Shown in pieces: positions 18,585 to 64,000 of a stretch of DNA of 64,000 nucleotides. The notes under the pieces were generated by a model that did no database searches, was not told where the DNA came from, and saw only the letters and a program-made list of their open reading frames with translations. The stretch spans positions 1,178,337 to 1,242,336 of the forward strand of contig NZ_CP075169.1 in assembly GCF_016865525.2 (NCBI RefSeq). The letters are read 5' to 3'. The DNA is from Sodalis ligni (GTDB taxonomy: Bacteria > Pseudomonadota > Gammaproteobacteria > Enterobacterales > Enterobacteriaceae). Position numbers and translations under genes: made by a program. Numbering within the stretch: position 1 is the stretch's first letter; every line of letters begins with the position of its first letter.

Positions 18585-19072
18585 TTAGCCGGCTATATTG
18601 ACTTTCATCGTCGCCAATTTAGACAGTTTGATATCGGTGTCTTTTTCTTCCTTTAAGGTTTCAGCCAGCAGCGCCTTCCCTTCGCTATATTTCAACAGTT
18701 CAGCCAAAGCGCAAAGAGTGCCGTAGGTGGCAATTTCGTAGTGCTCCACCTTCTGCGCCGCGGCAATAAGTCCGGCATCGCGAACCGGGCCTTTTTCCAC
18801 TTCGTCGATAATTTCTTGTCCCTCTTCAACCAATCCTTCCATTGCCAAGCACTTCATCCGCTTGATCTTTACATTAGGGGTCGCTTCCACCAATTTATCA
18901 ATACGTTCTATCTGACCGTGCGTTTGCTCAAGATGCGCTTTGAATGCCGTGACCAACTCGGGATCTGTTGCGGCGCGGGCCATTTTCGGTAATGCGCGGG
19001 TAGTTTGCTTTTCAGCACTGTACACATCCGATAGGGCATGGATAAAAGGTCTTCCAGAGTTTTGATATTCAT
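18585..19072 (-). CDS. yciF: YciF-like DUF892 ferritin-like stress protein, frameshifted near the N-terminus
   Basis: Residues matching E. coli YciF run through the frame ending at 18585 (YSAEKQTTRALPKMARAA, QTHGQIERIDKLVE, IKRMKCLAMEGL, KVEHYEIATYGTLCALAE). YciF-type proteins are small four-helix ferritin-like proteins tied to osmotic and oxidative stress. The natural start is the ATG at 19072 behind GGAGACATAA, reading MNIKTLEDL; the match then changes frame at the T-run pairing with 19044-19047. Adding one base there gives exactly 162 codons before the stop, the family length. As written, only an internal start would give a protein missing about 16 residues. Either a recent pseudogene or a consensus error. 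Confidence 0.82.
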
Positions 19073-19686
19073 TTATGTCTCCGCGGCAGGTTTTAAAACA
19101 TTAAATAAGAAAGGCCCTTTTCAATGAAAATCCCTTTATGATATAAGTTTAGTCAGAGAGTGATAATAAAACAAACAGTGGCGTTAATATGAGAGAGTGA
19201 AATGATAATTGCTATCATGAATAATAATAAATTCATGGAGTTGGCGCTGAGTTTTTATCAGATTTTCCCATTGCTAGAATAATAAATCAAGAGGTAGAAG
19301 ATATTTAGAATAATGCAACCTAAAATATAAGCCGGTAACGGCCTATTTGTCGTTTGGACCATAGCCTCATGAGATACGAAAAAAACTTTTGTGACTTTTA
19401 GTTTTATCACCCTGGCGGGGCTTTTGGCTTTGCCGGCTTATGTAGCGCAGATGCAGCAGCGACGCCGTCGGCTGGATCACATTTTTTACTCGTGAATGAA
19501 CGTCACAACCTTCAAGACGTTTAATCCTCCTTTCAGGTCTGCCGCCATCGCGGTAGGATAATTGAAGTAAGGCATAACATAAGCAGTGGCACTTTCAGTA
19601 ACGTGCCGGGGAGAAGGGCGCGGATCGCGCTTTTATAGCCGCCGGCGAGCGTAACAGGCCCCGATAATTTAAATAAGGATGCAAGA
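19073..19686. other. AT-rich spacer, no firm gene
   Basis: About 600 bases without a convincing gene. A GTG-initiated 34-codon frame near 19392-19496 would give a short hydrophobic peptide with an Arg-rich tail, but has no clear ribosome site. The ribosome site of the next gene (AAGGA) is near 19675. Confidence 0.45.
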
Positions 19687-20007
19687 ATGGTTAATTTCAA
19701 AGAATTTATGCGTTTTTTCCGCGAGAAGATAAAGCACCCGCATAACGCCACGGTGCCGCACGATCCGGATATCACTTCATTGATATCCGCGCTGGGTGAG
19801 CAGGAAAATATCGTTGATGTGGATGCCTGTATCACGCGTTTGCGGGTGAAGGTCAAGGATTTGAGCAAGGTGGATACGGGGGAAATCCAGCATTTGGGCG
19901 CCGTGGGGGTGGTTGTGATAGGCCAGGAAATCCAGGCCATTTTCGGACGGCAATCGGATAATCTACGCCGCGAGCTGGCGGAACGTTTCGGCCTGGAGGA
20001 CAAGTAG
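19687..20007 (+). CDS. Stand-alone PTS glucose-type EIIB domain protein
   Basis: 106-residue protein made only of a glucose/sucrose-family phosphotransferase IIB domain. The phosphorylated cysteine is C48 in DVDACITRLRVKVKDL; the downstream signature GAVGVVVIGQEIQAIFG and SDNLRRELAERF are typical. A IIB domain takes phosphate from a IIA protein and gives it to the sugar bound in a IIC channel. Here no IIC or IIA is adjacent, so it must partner in trans or serve regulation. The start is supported by AAGGA seven bases upstream. A ~35-residue charged N-terminal extension precedes the domain. Confidence 0.85.
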   Translation: MVNFKEFMRFFREKIKHPHNATVPHDPDITSLISALGEQENIVDVDACITRLRVKVKDLSKVDTGEIQHLGAVGVVVIGQEIQAIFGRQSDNLRRELAERFGLEDK

Positions 20008-20078
20008 GCGCGAATCGCCTTCGATCCTGTTTGCGCTCCCCCTTTAATACGCCCGGTCCTTCGCCAGCGCCGGGCCGG

Positions 20079-20215
20079 TCAAATCGACCCATGGCTTCTT
20101 TCCGGCAAGAGGACATAATCGATAACGTCTTTGGCCTGTTCGGGCGGTTTGGTGCATTTCATCATCGGCAGTGGCGCGATAACCGTACCGCCGGCGGGAA
20201 AGATGGCCTTTCGTG
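20079..20215 (-). pseudogene. Possible remnant of an iron(III)-type ABC binding protein
   Basis: One reverse-strand segment reads PAGGTVIAPLPMM followed by PPEQAKDVIDYVL, which resembles the C-terminal part of AfuA/FbpA-type periplasmic binding proteins (PADGT...P.PM and NPE.AK..IDYVL). Nothing else of the gene is visible and flanking frames are closed. If real it is a short decayed fragment. The resemblance is limited to about 35 residues. Confidence 0.3.
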
Positions 20216-20518: not shown

Positions 20519-20994
20519 TTATATCGGCTCAATCTCCGCGGGCGATCCCGGCAGCGGCACATAGCGCTGCCATTGCCTGTCGATGAATCTAAAAATGAGC
20601 TGTTCAATGAAACGATCCTGTCCCGACTCGGAAAGTAAATGGACATGCAGTTCCCTTTCGCTTTCCTCCAGCAATAAGCCGACATAGATCGTTCTTAATG
20701 CAATATCGGCCCCTCGGGGCAAGGGGTGGCAACTTTGTTCCCACTGACTGACGATCGACGCGCCCACGCCCATTTTTCTCCCAGTTCCCTTGTTAATAGA
20801 TTCATTTCGCTGCGTATAAAATACATCTCCCGTCCGGTCAGAGATCCCCGGCGATTAATTAATGCCTTGGCGATTAATCGATGTAAACCGGATTTATCTT
20901 CAATGCAGTAGGCGAGGTCCTTATTCATTTTCTCTTGCGCATAACCGTTGATGAGCCAAACAATTGATAATCCGCAATCTTTATAATGAAACAT
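20519..20994 (-). pseudogene. MqsA/HigA-like HTH protein, frameshifted
   Basis: Two frames join into one protein of about 158 residues. The first part (from ATG 20994, ribosome site AAGGAAAATT) reads MFHYKDCGLSIVWLINGY, the start of a YgiT/MqsA-like HTH family, and continues to MNLLTRELGEK. The second frame continues MGVGASIVSQWEQ with PRGADIALRTIYVGL, the helix-turn-helix recognition part. One base is missing from the run pairing with 20773-20777 (five T; six would restore the frame and give 158 codons plus stop). Such proteins are antitoxins or solitary regulators; no toxin gene is beside it. As written it lacks an intact DNA-binding domain. Confidence 0.65.
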
Positions 20995-25768: not shown

Positions 25769-27925
25769 ATGACGTATCCGCCGTTGGGTCAGGATGAAGA
25801 AAAGCGTTTGGCAATTCTTGAGGAATTCGGAATTCATTCGCCAATAGCGGATATGGCTTTTAACCGTTTAATCCAATTAACGGCCAATATATTCAATGTT
25901 CCCATCGTATTGATTTCCCTTATTGAAGCGGAGCGGCAGCTGTTTGTCGCCAGCACCGGCATCGCTACCTGTGAAACGCCGCGGGACATTTCCTTTTGTA
26001 CCCATACCATCCAAACTCGAAATATCCTGGTGATACCGGATACCCTGGCGGATCCTTTATTCCGGGATAATCCACTAGTGACCGGGGAGCCCTTTATCCG
26101 TTTTTACGCCGGAATACCACTGTTTACGCGAACGGGCTACGCCATCGGCTCATTGTGCATTATCGATCGGGTACCGCGACCGGATCTTAACGGCGGCGAC
26201 AGGCAGAATATGCAGGATTTGGCGGCGCTGGTGATGGATAAGCTGGAAATGCGCCGGCTGGAACGGGCGCGCGGCGCCAGCCAGGGCCGTTTTGAAAATA
26301 TCGCGCATACCTCGCCGGATGCGATTATCTGCGCCGACGAAATCGGTACCATTACATTTTGGAACGCCGCCGCCCGCAAATTATTGGGTTATGACAGCAA
26401 GGATATTATCGGACAAAATATTAATATATTGATACCGGGCGGTCCGGTGGCCCGATTGCGCCGTCTGGTGGCGGATAAAGAAGCCTTGCAGCATGGCGGC
26501 ACGCTGGAACTGAAGGTTCGGGCCGCAGACGGCGCCTGGATTCCGGTAGAGCTGTCCGCCTCGATGTGGGTCGATGATCAGCATGTCAGCTTTGGCGCCA
26601 TCCTGCGGGATATTACCGAACGCCGCCGCAATGAGGAGCGCCTATTCCAACTGGCGCATATGGATCATCTTACCGGACTGGCCAATCGGACCCTGCTGAC
26701 GTCGAGTCTCGAACAGGTATTGAGGAATGAAGACGCCGCCATCATCATGCTGGTGGATCTGGACGGCTTCAAGGACGTTAACGATAATCTGGGACATGCC
26801 GGCGGCGATGCGGTTCTGGTGGAAGTGGGCTATAAACTGCAGCACTGCGTGCGATCCGGCGATGTGGTGGCCCGCATGGGTGGCGATGAGTTCGCCATGC
26901 TGATGCCGGGCCTGTCGGATCCGCAGCGGGCGGCGGAAATCGCCGACCAGATCATTGATGAAATATCAAAAATTTTGGCCGTCGACGGACAGCCGGTGAA
27001 TATCGGCGCCAGCGTCGGTATCGTGATTTATCCCATCCACGGCCTGACTATCCAGGAACTGCTTACCAGCGCGGATCTGGCGCTCTATCAGGCGAAAGCC
27101 GAGGGACGCCACTGCCGCCGTTTCTTTACCCGCGAACTGCGTGAGCTATCGCAGGCGAAACGCTCCTACCAAACCGAACTCGGCCGCGCCTTCGAGCAGA
27201 ATGAATTTGAATTGTTTTATCAGCCTCAGGTACGTTTGTCCGACGAGGCGATTGTCGGGGCGGAAGCCCTGCTGCGCTGGCAACATCCGGTAAAAGGATT
27301 GCTTGGTCCGGCCGCTTTTTTACCGGCGTTGGAATCCGGTCCGTGGGCGGAACGGGTCGGGGAGTGGGTGATAAAGACCGCTTGCCGCCAGACGGCGGCC
27401 TGGCGCAAGGCCGGCGTTGAAAATTTCCGTACCGGCGTCAATCTCTTTAGCGCTCAGTTCAGAACCGGAAACCTGGCGCGGCAGGTTCGCGCCATTCTGG
27501 CCGAAACCGGGTTACCGCCCCAGGCGCTGGAATTGGAAATCACCGAGAATATTATCCTGCGCCATGATGAAACGATGCTGCTTCCGCTGTGCGAATTATG
27601 CCAAGATGGCGTGGGGATCGCTTTTGATGACTATGGAACGGGATATGCTTCCCTCAGCATGCTCAAGCATTACCCGGTCACCCGGCTGAAGGTGGATCAA
27701 ACCTTTGTCCGCGCCATGTGCGAATCCCCGCCGGATGCGGCGATCGTCAGGGCAATACTCTATTTGGGCAGCAGCTTCAAACTGGAGGTTATCGCCGAAG
27801 GCGTTGAAACCGTGGAACAGTGCGAACGCTTGCGTAAAAAAGGCTGTCTGGAAGCCCAGGGCTATCTGTTCGGCAAACCCATGCCGGCGGCGGAGTTTGC
27901 CCTGCGGTTGGGACTGGGACGCTGA
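25769..27925 (+). CDS. GAF-PAS-GGDEF-EAL cyclic-di-GMP signalling protein
   Basis: 718-residue cytosolic protein without membrane helices. GAF domain about residues 20-165 (RDISFCTHTIQ, IGSLCIIDR), PAS domain about 175-290 (SPDAIICADEIGTITFWNAAA), diguanylate cyclase domain about 295-455 and phosphodiesterase domain about 470-715. The cyclase motif GGDEF (371-375) is exact and is preceded by an RxxD inhibitory site (362-365). The phosphodiesterase motif EAL (499-501), DDYGTG and VIAEGVET are also intact, so both activities are possible. Inputs would come through GAF and PAS. The neighbour downstream is unrelated; no partner gene is evident. Confidence 0.95.
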   Translation: MTYPPLGQDEEKRLAILEEFGIHSPIADMAFNRLIQLTANIFNVPIVLISLIEAERQLFVASTGIATCETPRDISFCTHTIQTRNILVIPDTLADPLFRDNPLVTGEPFIRFYAGIPLFTRTGYAIGSLCIIDRVPRPDLNGGDRQNMQDLAALVMDKLEMRRLERARGASQGRFENIAHTSPDAIICADEIGTITFWNAAARKLLGYDSKDIIGQNINILIPGGPVARLRRLVADKEALQHGGTLELKVRAADGAWIPVELSASMWVDDQHVSFGAILRDITERRRNEERLFQLAHMDHLTGLANRTLLTSSLEQVLRNEDAAIIMLVDLDGFKDVNDNLGHAGGDAVLVEVGYKLQHCVRSGDVVARMGGDEFAMLMPGLSDPQRAAEIADQIIDEISKILAVDGQPVNIGASVGIVIYPIHGLTIQELLTSADLALYQAKAEGRHCRRFFTRELRELSQAKRSYQTELGRAFEQNEFELFYQPQVRLSDEAIVGAEALLRWQHPVKGLLGPAAFLPALESGPWAERVGEWVIKTACRQTAAWRKAGVENFRTGVNLFSAQFRTGNLARQVRAILAETGLPPQALELEITENIILRHDETMLLPLCELCQDGVGIAFDDYGTGYASLSMLKHYPVTRLKVDQTFVRAMCESPPDAAIVRAILYLGSSFKLEVIAEGVETVEQCERLRKKGCLEAQGYLFGKPMPAAEFALRLGLGR

Positions 27926-27975
27926 AGACGATGGCGATGCCCATGAGTTCTTTTGACGCGGTCGGGACAATCGTC

Positions 27976-28785
27976 TTACCAAGGCCGCCAGAACCGCCCC
28001 ATCTGGGCCATGTGTCCGTTTGCCGCCTGCTGTTGCAAAACCGGCAGGGGACGGGAACCCGCCCTTCCGTTGTTTGTGCCACTTTTGCCTTGAGCGCTAC
28101 GGTGAGTTTCAGCCGCTTTCTCCGCCGGGCCATTATTGCCCTGCCGTGCGGCGAGTAGGGAAGAGTTGACTTCTAAAATCCTTTTATGGAGCAATTCTGC
28201 CGAAAGGCCGCCATCGTCAAGATTTCCTGTCCATGCCGGACATTCTTTCAACCATTTCATGAGTCTCGTACGGGGAACACCGTATTTCTTTACCACAGAA
28301 TATATGCTCAGGTATTTATTCGTTACCTCATCCAGGCATGCTTTTTTGATGTTCTGATAATAGATCTCTTTTTCCCATTTTTTCCGCGCTGTAATAGCGG
28401 CGTAGCTGGACCGATACGGCATTTGTCTGTACTGATTGGAAGCCTTGGCGTTAAGCGAATCGCCAATTGTATGCACAGAGCAATGAGCATGGAGATTGCA
28501 GTTCTTCTGCCCGCCCATGATTGATTGAGGTAAACCGGCAGTAATTTCAGAGCCGCCGGTCCATGATCCGCCATGTATTGAAGGTGGGAGCTGAGCACTA
28601 TCGCGTGACGCCGCAGGGATTTTTTTAAATTTCACACTGCTGTTGGAAACGCTTATTCTTGGCGGCATTCGTGATGTATTGGCAGAAAAGGGTTCATGCG
28701 TATTAGCTCCGGCTCCAAGTCCATCCATTGAGGCATATCCGCTAAAAGTCACCGTCCCGTTATTAGCCGACAGCGTATTATTCAT
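27976..28785 (-). CDS. Unrecognised protein with a psq-like helix-turn-helix segment
   Basis: 269 residues from the ATG at 28785, which follows TTGGAGC. The N-terminal ~130 residues are polar and low in predicted order (many Ser, Asn, Gly). A central part reads ARKKWEKEIYYQNIKKACL and then YLSIYSVVKKYGVPRTRLMKWL, the spacing of a Psq-type or Hin-like helix-turn-helix. The C-terminus is Gln/Ala-rich and ends in FWRPW. It is AT-richer than its neighbours and stands alone between the c-di-GMP gene and the gat cluster. It could be a DNA-binding protein or a secreted effector; no function is assigned. Confidence 0.6.
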   Translation of the reverse strand: MNNTLSANNGTVTFSGYASMDGLGAGANTHEPFSANTSRMPPRISVSNSSVKFKKIPAASRDSAQLPPSIHGGSWTGGSEITAGLPQSIMGGQKNCNLHAHCSVHTIGDSLNAKASNQYRQMPYRSSYAAITARKKWEKEIYYQNIKKACLDEVTNKYLSIYSVVKKYGVPRTRLMKWLKECPAWTGNLDDGGLSAELLHKRILEVNSSLLAARQGNNGPAEKAAETHRSAQGKSGTNNGRAGSRPLPVLQQQAANGHMAQMGRFWRPW

Positions 28786-29085
28786 GCAAAGCTCCAAAAT
28801 GTTTCATCGTTTTTTTCAGTATCATAATGAAATTGTGCATCTGCTCAACAAATATTTTGGCTATTTTGAATAGCAGATAAAACAATTTTTTTTTCATTAA
28901 ACCAAACTTGGCCGAAACAGTGGATGTTCCGCCGAACCCTCCTTAAAGCCGCGATTTTCAACCTATCGTCATTTAAATATCTCTGCCCATCTACCCTCTG
29001 TCAAACCGGCGTTACGCCTACCCTCGGGGAGTTCCACAGCCAGTATGCCTACGGTTTACTCCTGAAAGTCAATGTTTCGATATCT
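28786..29085. other. Divergent spacer upstream of the gat-like cluster
   Basis: AT-rich near 28800-28900 with no gene. It is the promoter region for the HTH-like gene on the reverse strand; the operator and CRP-like site of the gat-like cluster lie just after it. Confidence 0.4.
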
Positions 29086-29105
29086 TTCGTTTAAGTTCAA
29101 ACGAA
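29086..29105. promoter_or_regulatory. DeoR/GatR-type operator
   Basis: TTCGTTT, six bases, AAACGAA: a perfect 7-bp inverted repeat about 80 bases before gatZ. TTTCGTTT-like sequences are typical of GatR/AgaR operators. The right half extended, AAACGAAGGT, recurs exactly at 39255-39264 just before the DeoR-family regulator gene, supporting control of the cluster and autoregulation by that protein. Confidence 0.55.
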
Positions 29106-29112
29106 GGTTTAT

Positions 29113-29128
29113 TATGATCAGGATCACA
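29113..29128. promoter_or_regulatory. CRP-like site before gatZ
   Basis: TATGATCAGGATCACA fits TGTGA-N6-TCACA with one mismatch in the left arm. It lies between the DeoR-type operator and the cluster start, as expected for catabolite control of sugar genes. Confidence 0.45.
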
Positions 29129-29185
29129 AACGTAAATAGAAGATAAATACAATAAATAAAAATAAATAGATACTAAAAGCAATCA

Positions 29186-30493
29186 ATGAAGCTGCTCAGA
29201 AGAGATATCAATGAAAGCTATTATCGAAGCGCACAAAAAGACGGTAAAACAGGCATTTGTTCCGTTTGTTCGGCCCATCCATTAGTAATCGAAGCCGCGT
29301 TAAGATTGGATTTGACAACAAATCGAAAGGTATTGATAGAAGCGACATCTAACCAGGTGAATCAATACGGTGGTTATACCGGGATGAAACCCGCGGATTT
29401 CCGTGATTTTGTTTATGCCATCGCGCAGTCCATCGACTTCCCGCAGGAAAGATTGATTTTAGGCGGCGATCATTTGGGGCCGAACTGCTGGCAGGACGAA
29501 CGGGCCGAGGAAGCCTTGGTCAAAGCGGAGGTGTTGATAGCCGAGTATGTTAAAGCCGGTTTTAGCAAAATCCATATCGATACCTCCATGTCATGCGCCG
29601 GCGATCCGGTTCCTTTGGCACCGGTAACGGTAGCCCGGCGCGCCGCGCGTTTATGCCGGGTGGCGGAAGAGAGCGCCACCGAATCGCAAAAAAACCGGCT
29701 GACTTACGTAGTGGGCACCGAGGTGCCGGTACCGGGAGGGGAAAAGCAGGCTAATTACCTGATGCATATTACGACATCTTCCGCCGCCGCCGAAACCATT
29801 CGTAGCCATTACGAAGAATTTGGCGCGCTGGGTTTAAAGGATGCCATCGGGCGTATTATCGCCATTGTCGTGCAGCCGGGGGTCGAATTCGATCATTCGT
29901 CGGTTATCCATTACGATCCTGCCCTGTCAATGGATTTATCAAGATTTATTACCCAAACCAGGCTGGTGTACGAAGCGCACTCCACGGACTATCAAACCGC
30001 CAAAGCCTACCGGCAGCTGGTGCGGGACCATTTTGCCATTCTTAAGGTGGGGCCGGCATTGACTTTTGCCCTGCGTGAAGCCTTGTTTGCCCTGGCCATG
30101 ATGGAAAAAGCATTGGTGAGTCCCGAAGCCCAAAGCCATCTGATATCGGTCATTGATCAGGTTATGCAGGACGAACCGGAATATTGGAAAAAATATTACA
30201 GTCCCATTCATTCCAAGGCGGTCATTGATATTCATTTCAGTTTGTCCGATCGCCTGCGTTACTACTGGCCGCACGATCGTATTGCGCTGGCGGTAAATAA
30301 ACTTTTTGACAATTTGAACAATGTTGCCTTGCCATTAGGAGTGTTAAGTCAATATTTTCCCGATCAATTTCAACGCATCCTGAATAAAGAATTGACCGGT
30401 ACACCGAAAGAGCTCGTCCTCAGCAAAATTCAGGATGTGTTGCGCGCTTATGCCTACGGATGCGATCAGGATGACACCCGACTTGAAATATGA
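29186..30493 (+). CDS. gatZ: Tagatose-1,6-bisphosphate aldolase non-catalytic subunit GatZ/KbaZ, probable N-terminal frameshift
   Basis: GatZ/KbaZ stabilises and activates the class II aldolase GatY, which splits tagatose-1,6-bisphosphate to glycerone phosphate and glyceraldehyde 3-phosphate. Family sequence is clear from [17 protein letters not shown] onward, with [22 protein letters not shown] and AHSTDYQT. The native N-terminus seems to be the ATG at 29211 ([10 protein letters not shown], as in E. coli GatZ), which is in another frame; one A added to the five-A run at 29235-29239 joins it perfectly and gives 427 residues, close to E. coli's 420. As written, translation from 29186 replaces the first ten or so residues with unrelated sequence. 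It heads the cluster. Confidence 0.88.
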
Positions 30494-30541
30494 AGGGTGC
30501 AGATGACACGGGAATTGTGCAAATTATTCAAGGCAGCAAAA

Positions 30542-32457
<1,916 letters not shown>

Positions 32458-32505
32458 TCCGATAATTAAACGCGGAACTTACCACCCCTGTACCGGGAGT
32501 TTTTT

Positions 32506-32934
32506 ATGTTAAAGAATATCAATGCTTGTATTTCACCGGAATTATTGCATCAGCTCTATTGCATGGGGCACGGTGATGAAATTGTCATCAGTGATGCCCA
32601 TTTTCCGGCCTATTCGGTCAATAAGCGGGTTATCAGGGCTGACGGAAATGAAGTCTCCGGCCTGCTGCGGGCGATAATGCCGCTATTCGCGCTGGATGGC
32701 TATGTTGATGATCCGGTGGTGATGATGGCCGCCGGCTCGGGCGACACGTTGCCGGACGGTTTGGTCTCGTTATATCAGCAGCACCTGCCGCGAGGGCAGA
32801 ATATCACTTTTATAGATCGTTTTGCATTTTACGACCGGGCCAAAAATGCCAGCTGCATTGTGGTGACATCCACTACGAAGAAATATGGCAATATTCTGTT
32901 AAAAAAAGGCGTTACACCGGTTGAAATAGATTAG
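32506..32934 (+). CDS. RbsD/FucU-family sugar mutarotase
   Basis: 142-residue member of the RbsD/FucU family, which interconverts alpha and beta forms of free sugars to help their phosphorylation or isomerisation. The signature CMGHGDEIVISDAHFPAYS holds the catalytic His and Asp. The length and the ASCIVVTSTTKKYGNILLKKG ending place it with FucU. Its presence suggests that the cluster takes up a free reducing sugar, not only a polyol. GGGAG lies six bases before the ATG. Confidence 0.9.
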   Translation: MLKNINACISPELLHQLYCMGHGDEIVISDAHFPAYSVNKRVIRADGNEVSGLLRAIMPLFALDGYVDDPVVMMAAGSGDTLPDGLVSLYQQHLPRGQNITFIDRFAFYDRAKNASCIVVTSTTKKYGNILLKKGVTPVEID

Positions 32935-32966
32935 AAATTCAATGTATTGAAGCATTGGAGCATAAA

Positions 32967-34487
32967 ATGACTCAACCTTTATTACAGATGACTGATATTT
33001 CCAAATCCTTTTCCGGTGTGCCAGCCTTGAAAAAGGTGAATTTTAAATTACGAAAAGGAGAAGTCCATGCGCTGATGGGCGAAAACGGCGCCGGAAAATC
33101 CACCTTGATGAAAGTCCTGATCGGTGTATATGAAGCGGATGAAGGGACCCTCTTTTACAAAGGACGCGAAGTTCATTACGATTCGGTACTGGAGGCGCAG
33201 CAAGACGGTATTAGCATGATTTTCCAGGAGCTGAACCTGGTGCCGCATCTTACCGTTGCCGAGAATATATTTCTTGCCCGTGAGCCGTTGAAAAATGGGT
33301 TAATCAATTATAAAAAAATGGAGAGCGACGCTCAGGATTTGCTGAATATCTTCGACATAGATGTTTCGCCAAGAGAGACCGTGCTGAACCTGTCTGTCGC
33401 CCGCCAGCAGATGGTGGAAATCGCCAAGGCGCTCTCATTTGACGTTGAAGTCCTGATTATGGATGAACCGACTTCGGCACTGACCAAGCGAGAAATAGAT
33501 AAGCTTTTCCAGCTGATTGATAAATTAAAGAAAAAAGATGTCTGTATTGTCTATATTTCACATCGTATGGACGAATTGAAGAAAATTTGCGATCACATTA
33601 CTATTTTCCGCGATGGAGAGTACGTATCCGATCATCCTTTCTCATCGATTACAATGAATGACATTATTGCAAAGATGGTCGGAAGACCCTTGGATAACCA
33701 TTTCCCGGTAAAAAGCGAAAATAACCGATGCGTTGATTTTGTCCATTCAGGACGCGTCGCGATATGGCGTATTTGAGCATATCAATTTTGACCTGCGACA
33801 GGGAGAGATTCTGGGCATTACCGGATTAGTGGGAGCAAAAAGAACCGAATTGGCCAGGGCAATATTCGGTGCGGAAACGCTGGATGAAGGACAAATCGTT
33901 ACCCTTGATAAAGCCATCAAAATCACCTGTCCGAACGATGCCATCAAGTCAGGTATCGCCTATTTATCGGAAGACAGGAAACTTAATGGATTGGCGGTAA
34001 GCATGTCCATCAAGAATAATGTCATTATGGCGGCGATGGAAAAAGTGTGTAACCGATATGGGATTATTTCCCGCGTGAAAGAGAAACTGGCCAGTGACAA
34101 ATATATCAAAAAGATGCAAATTAAAACGCCGCATATTGATCAGATTGTCAGCAACCTGAGCGGCGGTAATCAGCAAAAGTGGTTATCGCAAAATGGCTTT
34201 TCCGCGATGCCAGAATCATGATCTTTGATGAGCCGACCCGCGGGATTGACGTTGGGGCGAAATATGCCATTTATGAACTATTGGACGAACTGGCGGGGCA
34301 GGGTATCGGCATTATCATGATCTCCTCGGAGTTGCCGGAAATATTAGGGATGTCCGGTCGGGGGGTTATTTTGTAAGAAGGAGTGATGTGCGCGGGGCTT
34401 GGGAAGGCTAAAACCAGCCAGGAAGAAATAATGCAATATGCTACCGGCATCAAAGATATGTACACCGCAGAAAGAGAGGTTGCGTAA
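32967..34487 (+). pseudogene. Sugar ABC transporter ATP-binding protein (RbsA-like), broken by two frameshifts and a stop
   Basis: A duplicated-ATPase subunit of a ribose-type importer, about 506 codons if mended. First half is normal: Walker A GENGAGKSTLMK, MIFQELNLVPHLTVAENIF and Walker B LIMDEPTSALT. The frame then slips near the A-run at 33718-33721 (one extra base), and the second half continues LILSIQDASRYGVFEHINFDL. It slips again at 34175-34178 (one base missing: QQK-VVIAKW expected) and then meets TAA at 34374 where the family has Tyr (VILYEG). The same frame continues to the true end at 34485. The SDR motif before the stop has also changed to SGR. With three lesions, no full ATPase can be made; the transporter of this cluster is probably dead unless another ATPase substitutes. 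Confidence 0.88.
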
Positions 34488-35522
34488 ATGAGCGATAACC
34501 AAAAGCAATTGCTGTTGAAATTAACGGCATTGGGCGGATTGTTGTTACTGATTATTATTTTTTCGGTGACCAGCGGCAGTTTCCTGACCATGAATAATAT
34601 CATGACGGTGGGATTGCAAACCTCCACTATTGCCTTTATAGGCATGGGCGCCACCTGCGTTATCCTCACCGGCGGCATTGATTTAAGCATCGGATCCGTT
34701 GTCGCCCTGTCGGGCGTGGCGGCGGGGCTATCGATCAAGGCCGGTTTGCCGGTGGAGCTCGGCATGCTGGTGGGTATCGCCGCCGGTGCGCTGAGCGGCG
34801 CCGTTAACGGCCTGCTGGTCACTAATTTCCGGCTGCCGCCGTTTATCGCCACCCTGGGTACCATGATGATCGCTCGCGGGCTGGCGCTTTATGTCACCAA
34901 TGCCGCTCCGGTATCCGGGTTGCCGGATTCGTTCGGCGCGTTGGGTAACGGTTCCCTGTGGCGTATGACCTCTATCGGCGAAAACGGGCTGCCGTCGGTT
35001 ATCTTCCCCGGCATTCCCTATCCGGTGGTCATCATGGTGGCGTTGGCGCTGGTATTTACCTTCGTCTTGGTGAAGATGCGCTTTGGCCGCTATCTCTACG
35101 CCATCGGATCCAATGAGGAGGCCGCGCGCCTGTCAGGCATAAAGACCGATCGCGTTAAGCTGTACGCCTACACCCTCTGCGGCGCGATGTCCGGACTGTG
35201 CGGCATCATTATCGCTTCCCGGCTGGTGACGGCGCAGCCCAACGGCGGCGTGATGTACGAGCTTGATGCCATCGCCAGCGCGGTGGTGGGGGGGACATCC
35301 CTAATGGGCGGCGTGGGGTCTATTCCCGGCACGCTTATCGGCGCCTTTATTATCGGCGTGCTGCGCAACGGACTCAATATGAACGGTATCTCCTTCTTCG
35401 TGCAGCAAATCATCATTGGCGGCGTTATTTTACTCGCCGTCGCTTATGACCAGGTTCGTCAACATAAAAAAACCAAGAAACCTCTGAAAAAAACCAAACC
35501 CTCACTTAAGGAAAATAATGTG
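34488..35522 (+). CDS. Sugar ABC transporter permease (RbsC-like), reading through into the binding protein
   Basis: Ribose-type permease with about ten helices: TGGIDLSIGSVVALSGVAAG, then FIATLGTMMIARGLALY, GSNEEAARLSGIKTDRVK (coupling loop) and VVGGTSLMGGVGSIPGTLIGA. Its start follows GAGAGG and abuts the end of the ATPase gene. There is no stop: after a Lys-rich tail (HKKTKKPLKKTKPSLKE) the frame runs straight into the binding-protein gene, making a 661-residue fusion ending at 36473. Two seven-A runs (35466-35472, 35487-35493) precede the junction; one more A in either would place TAA at 35507-35509 and give a normal 340-residue permease. Confidence 0.85.
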
Positions 35523-36473
35523 ATGAATAAAATCGCCATGGTTGCCATGATTGGCTTAACCACCGTATTTGCGGTTCCCCATGCGTTTGCGAAACAGTCT
35601 GAAATTGCAGTTATTGTAAAAACAGCGAATTCTAATTATTGGCAAAATGTTAGTAAAGGCGCCAGCGATGCCGAAAAGTCCCTAAAGGGTAAATATAAAA
35701 TCACTTTCCAGGGACCTGATTCGGAAACCGCCGTAGCGGACCAGGTTAATATGGTTGATAACGCCATCAATCGGGGCGTTGCGGGAATCGTCCTCGCGCC
35801 GTCGGATCCGGATGCGTTAATCCCGGAAATCAAAAAAGCGTGGGAGAACGGTATCCCGGTGGTCTTGATTGATTCCGCGCTCAATAAAAAAGGCGAACAG
35901 TATTACCAGTCTTTCCTTTCCACGGACAACCGCAAAGCCGGCGCCATTGCCGCTGATAAATTAATCGCGAAAAACGGTAAAGAAGGCAAGGTCAGCGTAA
36001 TGTCATTCACCCCCGGCGCCGGCAGCGCCATCGAACGGGTCGGCGGATTTACCGATGAAATAGCCAAAAACTCCCATGTGAAAATTGTCGGACCCTATTA
36101 TTCACAATCCGATATGGCCACTGCCCTAAACCAGACCATTGATGCCATGGCCTCCAATAAGGATATTACCGCCCTGTTCGGCGCCAATGAACCCACCGCC
36201 ACCGGTATGGCCCGCGCCATCAAGCAGCTGGGTTATGCCGGTAAAGTCGTGGCCATCGGTTTTGACGGCAATACCTTATTACAAGACTTTGTCCGCGACG
36301 GTACGCTGGACGGCATTCTGGTGCAGTCGTCCTATCAGATGGGCTTTAAAGGCGTCACTACCGTGGACGCCATAATCAATAAACAAAAGGTTGAAAAATT
36401 CATCGATACCGGGGTGATTTATGTCACCAAAGCCAATATTGACTCCCCGGAAGCCAAGGCCGTTTTGTATTAA
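35523..36473 (+). CDS. Sugar ABC transporter substrate-binding protein (ribose/allose type)
   Basis: 316 residues from the ATG at 35523, with its own ribosome site AAGGA and a signal peptide (KIAMVAMIGLTTVFAVPHAFA, cleavage after AFA). The mature part is a Peripla_BP_4 domain: KTANSNYWQNVSKGASDA, GIVLAPSDPDALIP, NGIPVVLIDSALN and FGANEPTATGMARAI. It would bind a pentose or hexose in the periplasm. As sequenced it is also the C-terminal part of an unbroken permease frame. The ligand cannot be assigned; context suggests a sugar entering via tagatose or xylulose phosphates. Confidence 0.88.
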   Translation: MNKIAMVAMIGLTTVFAVPHAFAKQSEIAVIVKTANSNYWQNVSKGASDAEKSLKGKYKITFQGPDSETAVADQVNMVDNAINRGVAGIVLAPSDPDALIPEIKKAWENGIPVVLIDSALNKKGEQYYQSFLSTDNRKAGAIAADKLIAKNGKEGKVSVMSFTPGAGSAIERVGGFTDEIAKNSHVKIVGPYYSQSDMATALNQTIDAMASNKDITALFGANEPTATGMARAIKQLGYAGKVVAIGFDGNTLLQDFVRDGTLDGILVQSSYQMGFKGVTTVDAIINKQKVEKFIDTGVIYVTKANIDSPEAKAVLY

Positions 36474-36559
36474 GGCATCCTGTCGCGGCTGGGTACGTAT
36501 AAGTAATTTAACGTCTCCCCCGTTTCCCGGAGGGACTGAATGTCATAAGGATGGAATAT

Positions 36560-37581: not shown

Positions 37582-37717
37582 ACCGCGCTTTTGCGTTTGA
37601 TGTTCCCTACCGGCGCCCCGCTGGCCGCGCGGTGCGCCGGGTTGGCTGATGGCGGCCGGAAAAGCCGTCCCCGTCGCGGGTCGGCTTTTATTCGGCATTT
37701 TTTTCGGAAAACACATT

Positions 37718-39217: not shown

Positions 39218-39330
39218 GTAAGATAATTTATTTTGAATGTAATACTCCGTAATAAAACGAAGGTAAAAAATTTTCTTTTCACCAGGGCTCGGGTAACATA
39301 GTTAAAATTATTGTTAAGGAATCATGCAAA

Positions 39331-46448: not shown

Positions 46449-47562
46449 TCAGGGAAGCGTTCCGCAGGAAGAACGGATAATCAGTTCGCCGCGGAGCTGC
46501 AAATGGCGGGGGGCCGTCTGAGGAAACTGTAGACGGTTAAGCATCAGGAAAATGGCGTTTTCCGCGATATCGCCGAAGGGTTGTTTATAGGTGGTCAGGG
46601 GGATGCCGAGCAAAGCCGAATATTCATTATCATCAAAGCCGACAACGTTCACTTTGCGGTTGATTTGAGTGCAGACTGATAACAGCTTCATGGCGGTGAA
46701 ATCGTTGGCGCAAACAATATCGGTGGCGCCGGAATCGAGTATACGGTTAATAAACTTTTTATCCCCCACGGCGCCCTCATGCACCCACTCCGCTACGGCG
46801 GGCAGTGAGGCTTCCAGCAATGCCAGCCTATATCCCATAATGCGCATGGAAACCGTATGAGCCGAGTAGTTTTCACAAAGAAAATCAACGCGCCGCGTTT
46901 TATTTTGCAGCAAATGGCGCGTCACTTCATAACCGGCGGCAATATTGTCGATACCCACCAGGTCGTAGGCGCTTTTATCCGGATAAGCGGCAAAATCGCT
47001 GTCCACCAGGACCACCTTGATATTGTATTGCGATAATTTATGCAGAATCAGGTTGTTGATCTCATCCGCAAAGGGGTGAAATTCTATGGGAATAAAAAAT
47101 ATTCCGTGCACGTTATTTTTGATATAGCGATCGATGATTTTTTCAATGATCTCGATGATTTTTTGTTTACTGGCCTCCGATCCCATGGTGACCACACCGT
47201 TCCAGACCAGGGAAAAATTGAATTGCTGCGATAATGACGCCATGGACTTGAAAATTTGCTCGAAGAGAAAGCCGCTTTCATTGGCCTCAAGGCGAGGAGA
47301 TAATATACCAAGGATCAGTTCTTGCGGCGCAAGGGGAGATTCCTTACGCTGAACACAGACATAATGGCCTGAGCCTTGAGTACTGCTGATCAATCCCAGT
47401 TCTCTTAATTTAGCCAAGGCTTTGGATATTGTGGGCCGGGAGACGGAAAACTCATCACATAAAATTTTTCCGATGGTAAACGTTGATCTTCTTCGTAGAT
47501 CCCATCAAGGATACGCTGTTTTATCGTCAAGAATACCGCGTCAAGTTTACCTCTTTTGCCAT
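46449..47562 (-). pseudogene. GntR-type regulator with LacI-like sensor domain (AraR-like), broken HTH
   Basis: The C-terminal ~300 residues form a periplasmic-binding-like sensor (ILGILSPRLEANESGFLFEQIF, GIFFIPIEFHPFADEIN, DIVCANDFTAMKLLS, VVGFDDNEYSALLGIPLTTYKQP). The N-terminal winged helix is visible only across frames: MAK, then RGKLDAVFLTIKQRILDGIY, then FSVSRPTISKALAKLRELGLI. Two single-base losses explain it, at runs pairing with 47554-47557 and 47465-47469; mended, the gene has 371 codons. As written no intact DNA-binding domain is made. It lies between xfp and the divergent SIS-VOC-ABC operon and probably once controlled one or both. Confidence 0.82.
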
Positions 47563-48199: not shown

Positions 48200-48247
48200 A
48201 AAAGTAAATCATCAATGCCGATTAAACTAAAACTGAGGATTTTTTTG

Positions 48248-48819
48248 ATGTACACCTACAAGAACCTCGTTGAACAGGTAATAGCTGAAAACAAAACGAC
48301 GCTGCTGGCGGTTGATGAAAATGAAATTAGCCAGTTGATGGATGAAATATGTAAAGCAAAAACGATTCAGTTGTATGCTATGGGTAGAATGCAACTTTCC
48401 GTTCGCGCTTTTGCCATGCGGCTGAAGCATATGGGATTCGACAGTTATGTGGTTTATGACACCACCACCCCCTGCATCGGGGAGGGGACCTGCTTATCGT
48501 CCACTGCGGGGTCACCAATGTCGAACTCAATATCATCAAACTGGCTAAGGAAGCCGGCGCCCGCATCGCTTTGCTCACCGCGCATCCGGAAAACGAACAT
48601 GGCGGTTATGCCGATTTAACGGTGCGGGTACCGGGCCAGATTTTTGGCGGCGCTGAGGAAGTGGCATCCATTCAGCCCATGTCGTCCCTGCTGGAACAAT
48701 CGCTCTTTTTGTTTGTTGATATTATTACCATGCTGTTGATTGAAAAAACCGGTATTTCCCTCGACGAGATGAAAAAGCGCCATACCAATCTTGAAGGGTT
48801 GCCGCATAAATTTGCCTAA
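48248..48819 (+). pseudogene. SIS-domain sugar isomerase (HxlB-like), frameshifted
   Basis: Mended length 190 residues, the size of 6-phospho-3-hexuloisomerase. The first frame reads from ATG 48248 (ribosome site GAGGA) through AFAMRLKHMGFDSYVVYDTT to TPCIGEG; the second frame continues DLLIVHCGVTNVELNIIKLAKEAGARIALLTAHPE to the end. One base is missing in the four-G run at 48484-48487. Two family motifs differ from HxlB: the GAGRSG phosphate loop is AMGRMQ (44-49), and SGSGET is HCGVTN, so the usual Ser/Thr phosphate contacts are gone. The substrate is probably not the hexulose phosphate of the RuMP pathway. First gene of the operon. Confidence 0.78.
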
Positions 48820-49391: not shown

Positions 49392-50382
49392 ATGAAAAAA
49401 CTCAACGCAGTTGCGCTGTGCCTGCTGCTTGGCGCCGCCATCAATACCTATCCTATGATCGCCAACGCCGCGGGCGAGCAGCAATTAACGATGGTCGGTA
49501 TTCCGAAATTACGTTCCGCCTGGTTCAACGACTATGAAAAAGGGTTAAAAAGCCGGCAAGGATTTCGGCGTCAATGTTTACCAGCAGGCGCCCGCGTCCC
49601 CGGATGAAGCGCAACAGGTCCGTATTATTGAAGACTCCATCAGCCAGGGGGTTAACGCGGTGCTGGTGGTGCCGAATAACGCCAGCTCCTGTGAGCCGGT
49701 TTTCGCCCGCGCCCATGATAAAGGCATCGTGGTCATTACCCATGAGTCGGTGAACCAGCCTAACGCCGATTTTGACGTGGAAATGATCGAAAACGAAAAA
49801 TTCGGCAAATACATGCTGGATCAGTTCGCCCAGCATGTGAACGGCAGCGGGGAATACGCCATTTATGTCGGTTCGTTAACGGTGCCCGCCCACAATATCT
49901 GGGCGGATGCGGCGATAAAAGAAGCGAAGGCGAAATACCCCAATCTGAAGCTGGTGGCCGAGCGTTTCCCCGTCAGTGAGGATCGCAACGCCTCGCGTCA
50001 GAAGACCCTGGAACTGCTCTCCACCTATCCTGATCTGAAAGGCGTAATTTCATTCGGCAGCCAAGGTGGGCCGGGGGCGGCGCAGGCGCTGCGGGAGAAG
50101 GGCCTGGTGGGTAAATTGACCGTCATGGGCACCACCTCGCCGAAAGAAGGTGCGTCATTCCTGAAAGACGGTTCGCTGACCGAGCTGATTCTGTGGAGCC
50201 CGGGCGATGCCGCGTATTCCATGACCTATATCGCCAAAATGATCGCTGAAGGCAAACGCGATCAGATTAAAAACGGACTGGAAATCCCCGGCATCGGCAA
50301 ACCGGATATCAACGGCAAAAACATTATTTTTGATAAACCGCTCACCGTGACCAAAGACAACTACAGCAAATACGATTTTTAA
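49392..50382 (+). pseudogene. Sugar ABC transporter substrate-binding protein (RhaS/LsrB-like), frameshifted
   Basis: A signal peptide (MKKLNAVALCLLLGAAINTY) leads to a Peripla_BP_4 domain: QLTMVGIPKLRSAWFNDYEKGL, then in another frame GVNAVLVVPNNASSCEPVF, HESVNQPNADFDVEMIENE and WSPGDAAYSMTYIA. The frame slips at the five-A run 49547-49551; taking one base away joins the two parts into 329 residues (KGLKAGKDFGVNVYQQAP). The LsrB/RhaS-like pattern fits a deoxy-sugar or ketose ligand. As written the mature domain is cut after about 65 residues. It has an upstream ribosome site (GAGGAA) and the rest of the importer follows. Confidence 0.82.
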
Positions 50383-58412: not shown

Positions 58413-58507
58413 CGTTATGAGACATTGCGACGCGGATCGAACTCTATCATCTGAAGTTTGCGTTCCCCGGATGCAGTCAATAATCTATTTAGAAAGAGGT
58501 TCCCGAC

Positions 58508-59041
58508 ATGTCAATCAGTGTACGTTTAGACGATGAATTTGTAAGCGACATCAAGGTTCATGCTGAAGCGGCAAGCCGAAGCATACCCAAGCAAATTGAG
58601 CATTGGGCCAAAATAGGGCGTATTGCCGAAGAAAACCCCGATCTGCCCTATGGTTTTATTCTTGAGACGCTGTTAGCGCAGAGTGAAGTTAAAACAATAA
58701 GGTATCCCGCTATGCCAGAAGGACAAGCCGGTCGAAGGATTGATGTATACGAAACGCGCCGTTTCTCGAAGGCCCTGGCAAAGCTGCCCAGGGATGTGCT
58801 CGCAGCCGTTGAGGACGAGATTGACGCCATCATCGCCGATCCTTCCCTCGGCGAACAGAAAAAAGGGGATTTGCGCTTCCTGCAGGTACATAAGTTTTCA
58901 TTGAACAACCAATTGATGCTAATCGGGTATAGCTGGATTGAGAACCGGCTGGAGCTCTACCTGCTGAGTTTTGGCACTCATGAAAATTTTTACCTGGAGC
59001 AAAAAATTCATCGTAAAGCCGATCTTAAACTTATTGAATAA
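58508..59041 (+). CDS. ParD-like antitoxin fused to a RelE/ParE-type toxin in one frame
   Basis: 177-residue ORF. Residues 1-62 are an antitoxin of the ParD-like type (SISVRLDDEFVSDIKVHAEA, RSIPKQIEHWAKIGRIAEEN, DLPYGFILETLLAQSEV). Residues from about 79 onward are a RelE/ParE-like toxin (DVYETRRFSKALAKLPRDVL, FLQVHKFSLNNQLMLIGY, LYLLSFGTHENFYLEQKIH). In the usual arrangement these are two overlapping genes. One added A at the four-A run 58691-58694 would let the antitoxin end at TGA 58741 (78 residues), with the toxin starting at ATG 58712 (109 residues). So this is most likely a frame-break fusion, unless it is a true single-chain pair. Confidence 0.8.
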   Translation: MSISVRLDDEFVSDIKVHAEAASRSIPKQIEHWAKIGRIAEENPDLPYGFILETLLAQSEVKTIRYPAMPEGQAGRRIDVYETRRFSKALAKLPRDVLAAVEDEIDAIIADPSLGEQKKGDLRFLQVHKFSLNNQLMLIGYSWIENRLELYLLSFGTHENFYLEQKIHRKADLKLIE

Positions 59042-60454: not shown

Positions 60455-60574
60455 CATCCTGTTCTCTAATGATTATCTTGCAATCGATTCCGCCAATGCC
60501 TATCGGTGCGGCAAGTAAAGACAGTAGCCGCAAAATCAAATTCTCTTACGGGGGACAACAATCCTCCGTAGCTA

Positions 60575-61878
60575 TTAGCCAAAATCAAACCGCGTATTCA
60601 CCTCATCCCGGTCGTTGAAGCTTATTTCCACCGTTTCACCGGTTATCTCCACGTCATCGCGCTTTTTCAGTTCGTCAAGGCAGGATGCGGAAACATAGAT
60701 ATATTCCAGATGGAGGGTGTCTTTGATCCACACCACCTTGGCCCGGTCAAATTCAATGCGATTACAGGTCTTAATGGCTACCGCCAGCGCGATGCGATCG
60801 TTGGGCAGGATTAGCGGCAGCTTGCCGGCGTTGAGATTGGAGGAGGTAATGACATTGGTGTAAAACGCCGAGAAGTCGATTTTATTGAAAAACTTACTGG
60901 TGATGATATCGGCATTGTTGATACAGGCGGCATTGCCATGGGACTCGTCCGTCAGGTCGCGCACCCAGATTTTCTGGATGGGGGGCGCGACAAATCCCTC
61001 TTTCACATTGGTTGAATTCCGGCCGGTGACATTGGGATCCATACCGGCGCCGCTGACCTCTTTGCCGAACCGCTCCACTACCAGCACGTCTATACTCTTT
61101 AGCAGCAGTTTCGGCAATCGGGTCTTGGCCCGGGCCAGGATCGCCGGTTCTTCCGCCGCGATATCCTCCACCGGCAGCGCGACGATATCGCAGGTTTGGT
61201 CATAGGCGTTTTCCACCAGGCCGATGCCGATGGCTATCGGGGCCTTTTCCATCACCAGTTTCGCGGCAATGGGCATCAACTGGCCGAACGAGGGTATTTC
61301 ATGGCGGTGTATGGAGCTGGCGCCTATGTGCTTGCCCAGGCCGATAACCATCATTTTCTGGATGCCGCTTTCCACCGGACCCCTTAAGTCGGTATGGGGG
61401 TTGACGCGCCCGATGGCGATTACCGCATCGCTTTCATAGGCATTTTTATCAAACCAGATGCGCAGGCCGTTTTCCAATTGTCCCAATTCCACCGTGTCCA
61501 TGGAGGAGACAACGGGACAGCCGACGTTACTTTCAGTAATGCCGAAGCCGGCGATGACCTGGCGCTGGCCTTCGGCGGTGGCGCCGCCGTGGCTGCCCAT
61601 GGCGGGGACCACAAAGGGACTCCCGCCCCGTTGTTTTACTTCGTGCACCACGGCGGTAATAATTTCCCGCAAATTGGCGATGCCCCGGCTACCCGCGGTA
61701 AGTGCCACCCGCATCCCCGGCCGGATTTTGGCGCTCACGGCGGGTTTGGCAAATTCCGCCGCCACTTTGGCTGGAATGTCCTCCACCCGCGGGGGTCGAA
61801 TTTCTGTTTTACCCGATGCAGTCTCGGCCACGCCATATCAAAGCCGTCCTGCAGTTTTATGTCGGTATTCTCAAACAT
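60575..61878 (-). CDS. LarA-like (DUF2088) nickel-pincer enzyme family protein, frameshifted near the N-terminus
   Basis: LarA-family proteins use a nickel-pincer nucleotide to racemise or epimerise hydroxy acids. Seen: ALTAGSRGIANLREIITAVVH, VVPAMGSHGGATAEGQ, AIGRVNPHTDLRGPVESGIQKM, VIGLGKHIGASSIHRH (His-rich loop for cofactor and catalysis) and SGAGMDPNVTGRN. The natural start is the ATG at 61878 (MFENTDIKLQDGFDMAWPRL), nine bases after the transporter stop; the frame slips at the five-G run 61791-61795, where one base is missing. Mended length is 434 residues. As written only a GTG at 61831 opens the main frame, replacing the first ~30 residues. Operon with the MFS gene. Confidence 0.82.
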
Positions 61879-61887
61879 GGCCTGACC

Positions 61888-63207
61888 TTATGCTCCGGTT
61901 TCACGGCTGGTATTTGTCGCTTTAGGCAACCCGGCGGCGGCTTCAGGTGACTTTGGGTGGGTAAGGGGCCCCGGCAGGGTCAATGTGGTGAGAAATCCCA
62001 CCAGCAATATACCCGCCAGGCAATAAATGCCGGTGGAAAGGCTGTATTGAGAAGTCATCCAGCCAATCATGAACGGGCCGACAAATCCCCCCAGATTGCC
62101 CAGGGCGTTAATCACCCCGCGCGCGCCGCCGGCCAGATGATGGGGAAACAGCACCGGCGGTATGGTCCAAAATACGCTGGAAGCAGATTCATAAAACAGC
62201 CCGCACAGCACCAGAAAGGTAAATGATACCCAGATATAATGGCTGAATTGCGCCGAACAGATTAAAAACAGCGCAAATCCGAATAGGGATAGCGCGATGA
62301 AAAATTTCCGGTTGTTTCTTTTATCCGACAGCGACGAAATAGCATAGGTGCCGATGAGCATGGCGACATAAGGTAATGTGGATAAGAATCCCACCGCGCC
62401 GATGCCCATGGTGGTGAGGTTTTTAATCATCGTCGGCAGCCAGAAGCTGAAGCCATATATACCGGTCTGATAGCAAAAATAGATGACTACCAGTTTCCAC
62501 AGGCTGTTTTGTTTTAAAATTTCCATCAGCGAGCCGGTATGAATACTTGCTTCCTGCTCCTCTCTGATTTTGTTGTTGATATAACTACGCTCTTCTTCGC
62601 TTATCCAATCGGCGTCATCCGGCCGGTTGCTGATAATCGGGAACCAGATAAACAGCAATAACAGCGACATCACCCCTTCGATAATAAACAGTTCCCGCCA
62701 GCTCCAGCGACTGATAATCCAGCCGGCAATGGGACCGTTGATAAAGTTGGCGATAAAGACAATACCGCCGATAAATATCGCGTTGGCCCGGGCGCGTTCG
62801 GCGTTGGGAAACCAGTTGGAGATAATGATCAGCAGCGCCGGAAAGACACCGCCTTCCGCCACCCCTAAAATGAAGCGCAGCGTCAGCACCTGCCAGTCTT
62901 TTTCCACAAAGCCCATCAGAAGAGAGGTGGCGCCCCAGCCAACAATGGTATAGGCGATGAATTTTTTAGCGCTGCCCCCGGCGGCAATCAGCCCGCCGGG
63001 TATTTGCAGCAGCAGATAGCCGATAAAGAAAATGCCCGCCACCAGTCCGGCAAAGGTGGTAGATAAACCCAGATCTTTATCCATGCCGCCGGCGATGGCG
63101 AAACCAATATTCACCCGATCCATCAGGGCAACGATATAAACCAGAAGTATCGGCGGCAGGATCCTTACCCATCTTTTATTGGGAATCACGTGCGGATCAT
63201 TGAGCAT
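61888..63207 (-). CDS. MFS transporter (ACS family, hydroxy-acid type)
   Basis: 439-residue, 12-helix carrier. Seen: LLVYIVALMDRVNIGFAIAGG, GIFFIGYLLLQIPGGLIAAG, RFILGVAEGGVFPALLIIISNW (ACS signature) and NRPDDADWISEEE in the central loop. The start at 63207 (MLNDPHVIPNKRW) has AGAGG seven bases upstream; longer in-frame starts to 63399 add a polar extension without family match. With the LarA-like gene nine bases after it, it probably imports the hydroxy acid that LarA converts. Confidence 0.9.
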   Translation of the reverse strand: MLNDPHVIPNKRWVRILPPILLVYIVALMDRVNIGFAIAGGMDKDLGLSTTFAGLVAGIFFIGYLLLQIPGGLIAAGGSAKKFIAYTIVGWGATSLLMGFVEKDWQVLTLRFILGVAEGGVFPALLIIISNWFPNAERARANAIFIGGIVFIANFINGPIAGWIISRWSWRELFIIEGVMSLLLLFIWFPIISNRPDDADWISEEERSYINNKIREEQEASIHTGSLMEILKQNSLWKLVVIYFCYQTGIYGFSFWLPTMIKNLTTMGIGAVGFLSTLPYVAMLIGTYAISSLSDKRNNRKFFIALSLFGFALFLICSAQFSHYIWVSFTFLVLCGLFYESASSVFWTIPPVLFPHHLAGGARGVINALGNLGGFVGPFMIGWMTSQYSLSTGIYCLAGILLVGFLTTLTLPGPLTHPKSPEAAAGLPKATNTSRETGA

Positions 63208-63483
63208 AGCATTGCCTCTCATTGTGTTTGGTTCCCAGCTGAAGTTGTTATATTGACTCGCCATACTCCAAGGGACTGACTGTCTGTTTTTCAGTGCATC
63301 CACTTCGCTAACATCATTATGTGTATGGTTTTCATTGGAACTGTTTGGCTTTATTAAGCCCGCTTCAAACCGCCGCGGTTGTGATTGATTAACCACCAAT
63401 AACCCGCTGTGGTTTTTGTGAACTGCCTCTCATTGATAATCGTTTTTTAATGAAAGATGTCTTGTCTGTTAACGAGATTATGA
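63208..63483. other. Divergent spacer between the MFS-larA unit and larB-like gene
   Basis: Holds the promoters of both divergent units. No gene supported. Confidence 0.4.
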
Positions 63484-63512
63484 ATAACCTGTAATCCTGT
63501 CAAACAGGTTAT
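63484..63512. promoter_or_regulatory. Operator-like inverted repeat in the lar divergent promoter
   Basis: ATAACCTGT, eleven bases, ACAGGTTAT: a perfect 9-base inverted repeat between the divergent MFS/larA and larB-like units. It could bind a dimeric regulator controlling both sides. Confidence 0.55.
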
Positions 63513-63577
63513 GGTGTTAGCGTCCGCTGATTTCTTGAATTGCGAAACTAATCACAAAAAGCACCGGGTGAGCCGAC

Positions 63578-64000
63578 ATGAATACGTTTGAAGACTTGGG
63601 TTATTGCAAAGTGGATGTCCAGCGCGAGAGCCGGACCGGTTTCCCCGAGGTGATTTTTGGCCAGGGCAAAACCGTTGCGCAGATAGCCGGTATCTTTGAT
63701 CGCTTGCTGAGCCATCATGGTAAGGCCATGGTGACACGGCTTGGATCAGGCAAGGCGGCGCAGGTAATGGCGGCCTTTCCCGCGGCCCGCTACGACGCCG
63801 GGGCGCGCATTCTGTGCCAGGGGGGCGCCAAAGCCCGCTTTGCCGGAGAAGTGATGGTGCTGTGCGCCGGAACCTCGGGGATCTGCCGGTGGCGGAAGAG
63901 GCGGCGCTCACCGCCGAATGGATGGGGTGCCGGGTCCGCCGCCGCTACGATGTGGGCGTCGCGGGCATCGACCGGCTATTGGCCTACCGCGATGAAATCG
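63578..64000 (+). pseudogene. larB: LarB-like (NCAIR-mutase-related) protein, frameshifted, 3' end outside window
   Basis: LarB carboxylates and hydrolyses nicotinic acid adenine dinucleotide in the first step of nickel-pincer cofactor synthesis. Frame 1 from ATG 63578 (ribosome site GGTGAG): EDLGYCKVDVQRESRTGFPE, VIFGQGKTVAQIAGI, ending VLCAGTSG. Frame 2 then reads [19 protein letters not shown] and [20 protein letters not shown]. The slip is at the four-G run 63877-63880 (one base lost or two gained). It is cut by the end of the window. As written the conserved AEEAA helix is missing from the product. Confidence 0.85.

Follow-up and report, generated by a model that had tools for sequence, protein, structure and literature searches.

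Frame breaks in a Sodalis ligni genome assembly very probably reflect residual consensus errors, mainly in GC-poor patches

A window of 64,000 bases (positions 1,178,337 to 1,242,336 of the single-contig genome of the wood-dwelling bacterium Sodalis ligni, 6,443,694 bases, NZ_CP075169.1) contains genes that appear to be interrupted by single-base changes of frame, and a preliminary description had attributed these either to recent decay of accessory genes or to homopolymer error in the consensus. We found strong support for error and not for decay. The breaks are very probably residual long-read consensus errors left uncorrected by short reads, mainly in patches poor in guanine plus cytosine (GC). 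Under this reading, each base dropped from the consensus would shift the frame, and healthy genes would thereby look split, truncated or fused to a neighbor. Taken at face value, the assembly carries frameshifts in 16% of the scored genes together with spurious fusions, which would mislead studies of gene loss in Sodalis symbionts.

Single-base losses along the chromosome

Genes were scored against those of Sodalis sp. dw_96, the closest relative compared, in five stretches of the chromosome comprising 504,916 aligned columns and 376 scored genes. An open reading frame (ORF) was scored when it encoded at least 100 amino acids, had at least 80% of its length in an aligned block, was not overlapped by a better ORF, and carried at least 8 substitutions, at least 60% of them at third codon positions. 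We discarded compensated groups of insertions and deletions (indels), events with a local identity below 75%, and events within the initial 2% or the final 5% of the gene length. With these rules, 103 frame-breaking events were found in 61 of the 376 genes; 92 were losses and 11 were gains, and 90 of the 103 involved one base. When the ORFs of the S. ligni genome itself were taken as the starting point, 38 events appeared in 35 of 376 genes, as 33 gains and 5 losses in dw_96; the 33 apparent gains arise because losses in the S. ligni genome look so from its own fragments. Such one-sided loss of single bases relative to dw_96 is the pattern expected of consensus error in a long-read or hybrid assembly. 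Genes with nonsense changes only numbered 10 in the S. ligni genome and 13 in dw_96, showing no excess. The breaks had been said to lie nearly all at mononucleotide runs; under a strict test, 52 of the 103 events were located in runs of at least three bases.

The broken genes were not confined to 19-64 kb of the window, as had been claimed. They accounted for 13 of 83 scored genes in the stretch that includes the window, 5 of 49 lying outside the window itself, and for 15 of 55, 5 of 13, 0 of 27 and 28 of 198 in the other four stretches (48 of 293). The uneven pattern reported inside the window did hold, since no gene was broken among the 12 scored at 0-18.5 kb or the 6 scored at 50.4-58.2 kb, the two zones described as intact, compared with 5 of 13 at 18.5-50.4 kb and 3 of 3 at 58.2-64.3 kb.

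The mean local GC content was 51.7% for the broken genes and 56.4% for the intact genes (P = 6e-8). Below 45% GC, the excess of single-base losses (losses minus gains) amounted to 3.85 per kb in coding and 3.14 per kb in noncoding DNA, and above 55% GC it was near zero, between -0.43 and 0.13 per kb. The excess below 45% GC is not purged from genes, as the outcome of a mutation process under selection would be, whereas at 45-50% GC the comparison points the other way. We found that the losses were clustered (mean 1.02, variance 3.23 per 1.5-kb bin, 322 bins) and that the gains were nearly random in the same bins (mean 0.42, variance 0.60). The hottest bin contained 11 losses and no gains, in DNA that had diverged by only 6.3%. 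In the window, the worst zones (28-34 kb and 46-50 kb) have a GC content of 46-49%, as compared with 52-61% in the intact zones. Since the broken zones are often GC-poor, like most DNA containing breaks elsewhere, the apparent confinement to 19-64 kb, which had made decay look attractive, is largely an effect of GC content.

The genes murJ and pssA are required for growth in enterobacteria. Both, identified with NCBIfam on their dw_96 copies, are split by single-base losses in the S. ligni genome, and a search of the whole genome found just two pieces of each, in different frames. They emerged from a check of 20 of the 52 genes broken internally, 15 of which scored above a curated family cut-off; the 13 further family-matched genes include ptsI, ppk, fruA, fruK, radD, yejK, nfo, nrdB, cheZ and rcsA. 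The nrdB gene (4085844-4087134) is also split by single-base losses, and it was left out as proof because a second match elsewhere, weak at 27%, allows for another reductase. The 16S ribosomal RNA (rRNA) genes are affected as well: outside the V4 segment, four of the seven copies together show 7 losses and no gains relative to the others. Consensus error is expected to strike essential single-copy genes and rRNA in this way, and the sparing of essential genes expected of decay was not observed. A loss test stratified by GC content, combined with an inspection of single-copy essential genes and 16S copies, offers a quick check for assemblies of this kind.

Frame breaks in the window

Breaks in the window were tested with uninterrupted ORFs or DNA of relatives (dw_96, G001, G003, G004 and G005), aligned frame by frame. 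The features concerned are as follows.

18585-19072, minus strand: yciF-like gene (Pfam DUF892), with a break near its start at about 19044; the dw_96 and G001 ORFs continue across
20519-20994, minus strand: putative MqsA-like gene, with a break near 20775; a 158-residue dw_96 ORF matches in two frames
29186-30493, plus strand: gatZ, no break shown; GatZ domain at 7-419 of 420 residues
32967-34484, plus strand: RbsA-like sugar ATP-binding cassette (ABC) ATPase in three frames, with breaks at about 33712 and 34177; whole in S. ligni (P0195, 507 residues) and G003
34488-36473, plus strand: permease and periplasmic binding protein fused in a 661-residue ORF; two complete Pfam domains, separate genes in G003
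36598-37581, plus strand: aldo/keto reductase, no break shown; domain at 4-290 of 291 residues
43950-46409, minus strand: xfp phosphoketolase, intact; G001 alignment, three XFP domains, all complete or almost complete
46455-47557, minus strand: GntR/LacI-type regulator, with breaks near 47457 and at about codon 3; ORFs of dw_96, G001, G003 and G004 whole
48245-48819, plus strand: putative SIS protein, with a break near 48484; 190-191-residue ORFs of dw_96, G001 and G003 match in two frames (87-95%)
49392-50382, plus strand: autoinducer-2-type ABC substrate-binding protein, with a break near 49549; 330-residue ORFs of dw_96, G001 and G003 match in two frames
58508-59041, plus strand: ParD-like antitoxin and ParE-like toxin fused in one ORF (Pfam ParD_like 4-61, ParE-like 80-166); two ORFs in dw_96
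60575-61886, minus strand: LarA-like gene (Pfam Lar_N), with a break near 61795 close to its start; a 437-residue dw_96 ORF matches in two frames
63578-64000, plus strand: putative LarB gene extending beyond the window end, with a break near 63880; a 231-residue dw_96 ORF matches in two frames

The pieces of the MqsA-like gene and of the SIS protein gave no Pfam match, and both names are those of the preliminary description.

Among the 15 sites listed in that description, 11 were supported by a frame change in the window at a place that at least one relative crosses without a shift (19044, 20773, 33718, 34175, 47465, 47554, 48484, 49547, 58691, 61791 and 63877). At four of these, 47554 (DNA only, about codon 3), 58691, 61791 and 63877, the support came from dw_96 alone; comparison with dw_96 shows that two adjoining genes are fused at 58691. 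One more site, the junction of permease and binding protein (35466/35487), is consistent with a break, although unproven, as a single ORF stands here for two genes in G003. If the breaks are errors, the fused ORFs at 34488-36473 and 58508-59041 would enter databases as spurious fusion proteins. The sites in gatZ (29235) and the aldo/keto reductase gene (36599) are left undecided because N-terminal residues alone are involved: the Pfam domains are almost full-length, and the unmatched residues are the first 14 of the G003 protein and the first 33 of the G005 protein for gatZ, and the first 12 of the G003 protein for the reductase. The remaining site, in xfp (46311), was wrongly listed, since the 820-residue G001 protein aligns over residues 1-819 in a single frame through it; despite this whole alignment, residues 1-18 of the dw_96 protein lack a match. 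A search of genome contigs with xfp gave best relatives at 76% identity, and plasmid searches gave no close relative across the whole query; neither was used.

A possible further frame change, absent from the earlier list, was noticed at about 23757, close to the beginning of a gene whose dw_96 version encodes 631 residues. Truncation of runs, such that bad patches would contain none longer than 5 bases, was considered and rejected for the window, where runs of at least 6 bases are about as dense as in dw_96; such runs are missing in some hot bins elsewhere on the chromosome. The block at about 27900-39900, comprising gatZ, an aldolase gene, the sugar ABC transporter and the aldo/keto reductase, is a predicted accessory sugar-uptake island. 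It is missing from dw_96 at the corresponding place, and the 28-40 kb part of the window was therefore outside the scoring; much of the block has a counterpart with 67-74% identity in G003 (contig C101).

Near-identical copies of two of the broken genes are available. The ATPase of S. ligni 159R (P0195) is whole, and the first 405 residues encoded in the window differ from it by one, the identity being 100% over residues 1-249, 99.4% over 250-405 and 91% over 405-507. All nine differences in the last piece, one of them a stop, fall inside 17 codons (about 34356-34406) between identical flanks. This burst looks like a garbled consensus, unlike mutation, and is apparently a second kind of consensus error. 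Similarly, a whole counterpart of 371 residues (P0121), with 99.4% identity over 338 residues, exists for the regulator at 46455-47557. Decay would predict the same breaks in independent isolates; instead, a near-identical copy was located for two genes, and in each case that copy is whole. Among the matches listed for the binding protein (49392-50382), none is named as an S. ligni copy, and the closest is the dw_96 protein, with 98% identity over the query fragment. Published counts of single-nucleotide variants and indels between 159R and dw23 were not used, because the variant count, as quoted from that paper, seems at odds with its stated average nucleotide identity (PMC9241852).

Origin of the breaks and alternative explanations

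The data presented above suggest a simple origin. A long-read consensus drops bases in runs and may at times garble short stretches, and GC-poor patches without adequate short-read support would presumably keep such errors. The assembly is probably the hybrid assembly of strain dw23 or a successor of it. According to the dw23 paper, which names the accessions PRJNA599932 and PRJEB43208, MinION reads (LSK108, Albacore 2.1.7) and MiSeq 2x250 reads were assembled together by Unicycler with pilon, and 32 contigs are reported (PMC8226273), as compared with the single contig here. In accordance with this origin, the Kastor paper describes how indel errors in long-read bacterial assemblies make many genes look like pseudogenes (PMC12007338). 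The errors treated there likewise occupy a small fraction of the genome, and correction lowered the pseudogene rate from 23.3% to 5.6% (PMC12007338), against 16% (61 of 376) of scored genes broken here. Unlike in the cases described there, the errors here concentrate where GC is low, and most DNA rich in GC is free of them, as one might expect if a hybrid assembly had been corrected in part.

Several observations weigh against consensus error. The evidence consists of assembled sequences and not of raw reads, and P0121 could derive from a second assembly of this same strain. At 45-50% GC, the loss excess is 2.26 per kb outside genes and 0.78 per kb inside, as selection would give. The three breaks at 58-64 kb sit at 52-57% GC, where base composition provides no explanation, and the persistence of long runs (at least 6 bases) in the window means that shortening is not universal. 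Conservation at codon positions 1 and 2 is somewhat lower in broken genes (P = 0.005), although the ratio of change at these positions to that at position 3 does not clearly separate broken (0.190) from intact genes (0.176; P = 0.07). Finally, at 570-600 kb all 27 scored genes are whole, although the mean rate would predict about 5 events (P = 0.007).

It is conceivable, if improbable, that a minority of the breaks, such as those at 58-64 kb (ParD-ParE, LarA and LarB), are genuine and strain-specific and lie hidden among the errors. If true, a free-living Sodalis would just be beginning the decay that its insect-bound kin have undergone.

We consider it very unlikely that the breaks as a whole represent real, recent decay of accessory genes through single-base losses in runs, in a lineage becoming host-restricted. 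The lower GC content and slightly weaker conservation of the broken genes, the clustering of events, the strain-specific losses in two genes and the sparing of the genes at 570-600 kb would all suit such decay. However, murJ and pssA are split without a second copy in the genome, the loss excess below 45% GC is about equal inside and outside genes, and nonsense changes, which should accompany frameshifts, are not in excess of those in dw_96. Moreover, the genome, at 6.44 Mb, exceeds those of the five same-genus kin compared, and S. ligni is described as free-living in published papers. The pseudogenes reported for Sodalis glossinidius provide a likeness in the same genus, that of gene inactivation (PMC3091646). 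That bacterium is presented as a tsetse symbiont with proliferated mobile elements (PMC3091646), whereas the present genome is a large one of a free-living lineage in which single-copy essential genes seem broken.

A mismatch-repair defect is expected to leave single-base indels in runs as its signature, and the breaks would fit an isolate with a mutator phenotype that is truly losing bases in runs. Such an isolate should also gain bases, a loss excess of 3-4 per kb limited to DNA below 45% GC would be unexpected, and survival with split murJ and pssA is hardly likely, which makes this explanation extremely improbable. Programmed frameshifting or phase-variable runs, suggested by some regulator and transport genes being broken at runs, can be given almost no weight, as relatives carry these genes unshifted, unrelated genes are hit, and losses are also found between genes.

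Divergent V4 segments in the 16S copies and tandem arrays

The seven 16S copies lie outside the window, at 284217, 600531, 1134008, 4753387, 6058352, 6110615 and 6356294. Substitutions distinguish them at 118 alignment columns, and 96 of these columns fall between the sites of the V4 primers 515F and 806R. Of the other variable columns, three coincide exactly with the degenerate bases of the 806R primer site and 19 are elsewhere, most of them at 1002-1040, with none in the 515F site; the primer patterns match all seven copies. We searched for the origin of V4 in three of the seven. In the copy at 6,110,615, V4 showed 97.2% identity to Rhizobium, and in the copy at 1,134,008 it had enterobacterial best matches along with one Acinetobacter record at 96.8%; for the copy at 6,356,294, no match above 80.7% was found in the plasmid collection.

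Some of the 16S copies thus look like chimeras with foreign V4 amplicons, judging from these alignments. This would be explained most simply if V4 amplicons sequenced from other bacteria had found their way into the short-read data and displaced the corresponding 16S segment. Foreign V4 in 16S genes would mislead 16S-based identification and studies of operon heterogeneity; the dw23 paper states that the hybrid assembly helped identify seven individual 16S copies (PMC8226273). We also noticed tandem arrays, repeating about every 107 bases, at 1173831-1174845, 3.5 kb before the window, and at dozens more places on the chromosome; such arrays are present in dw_96 too.

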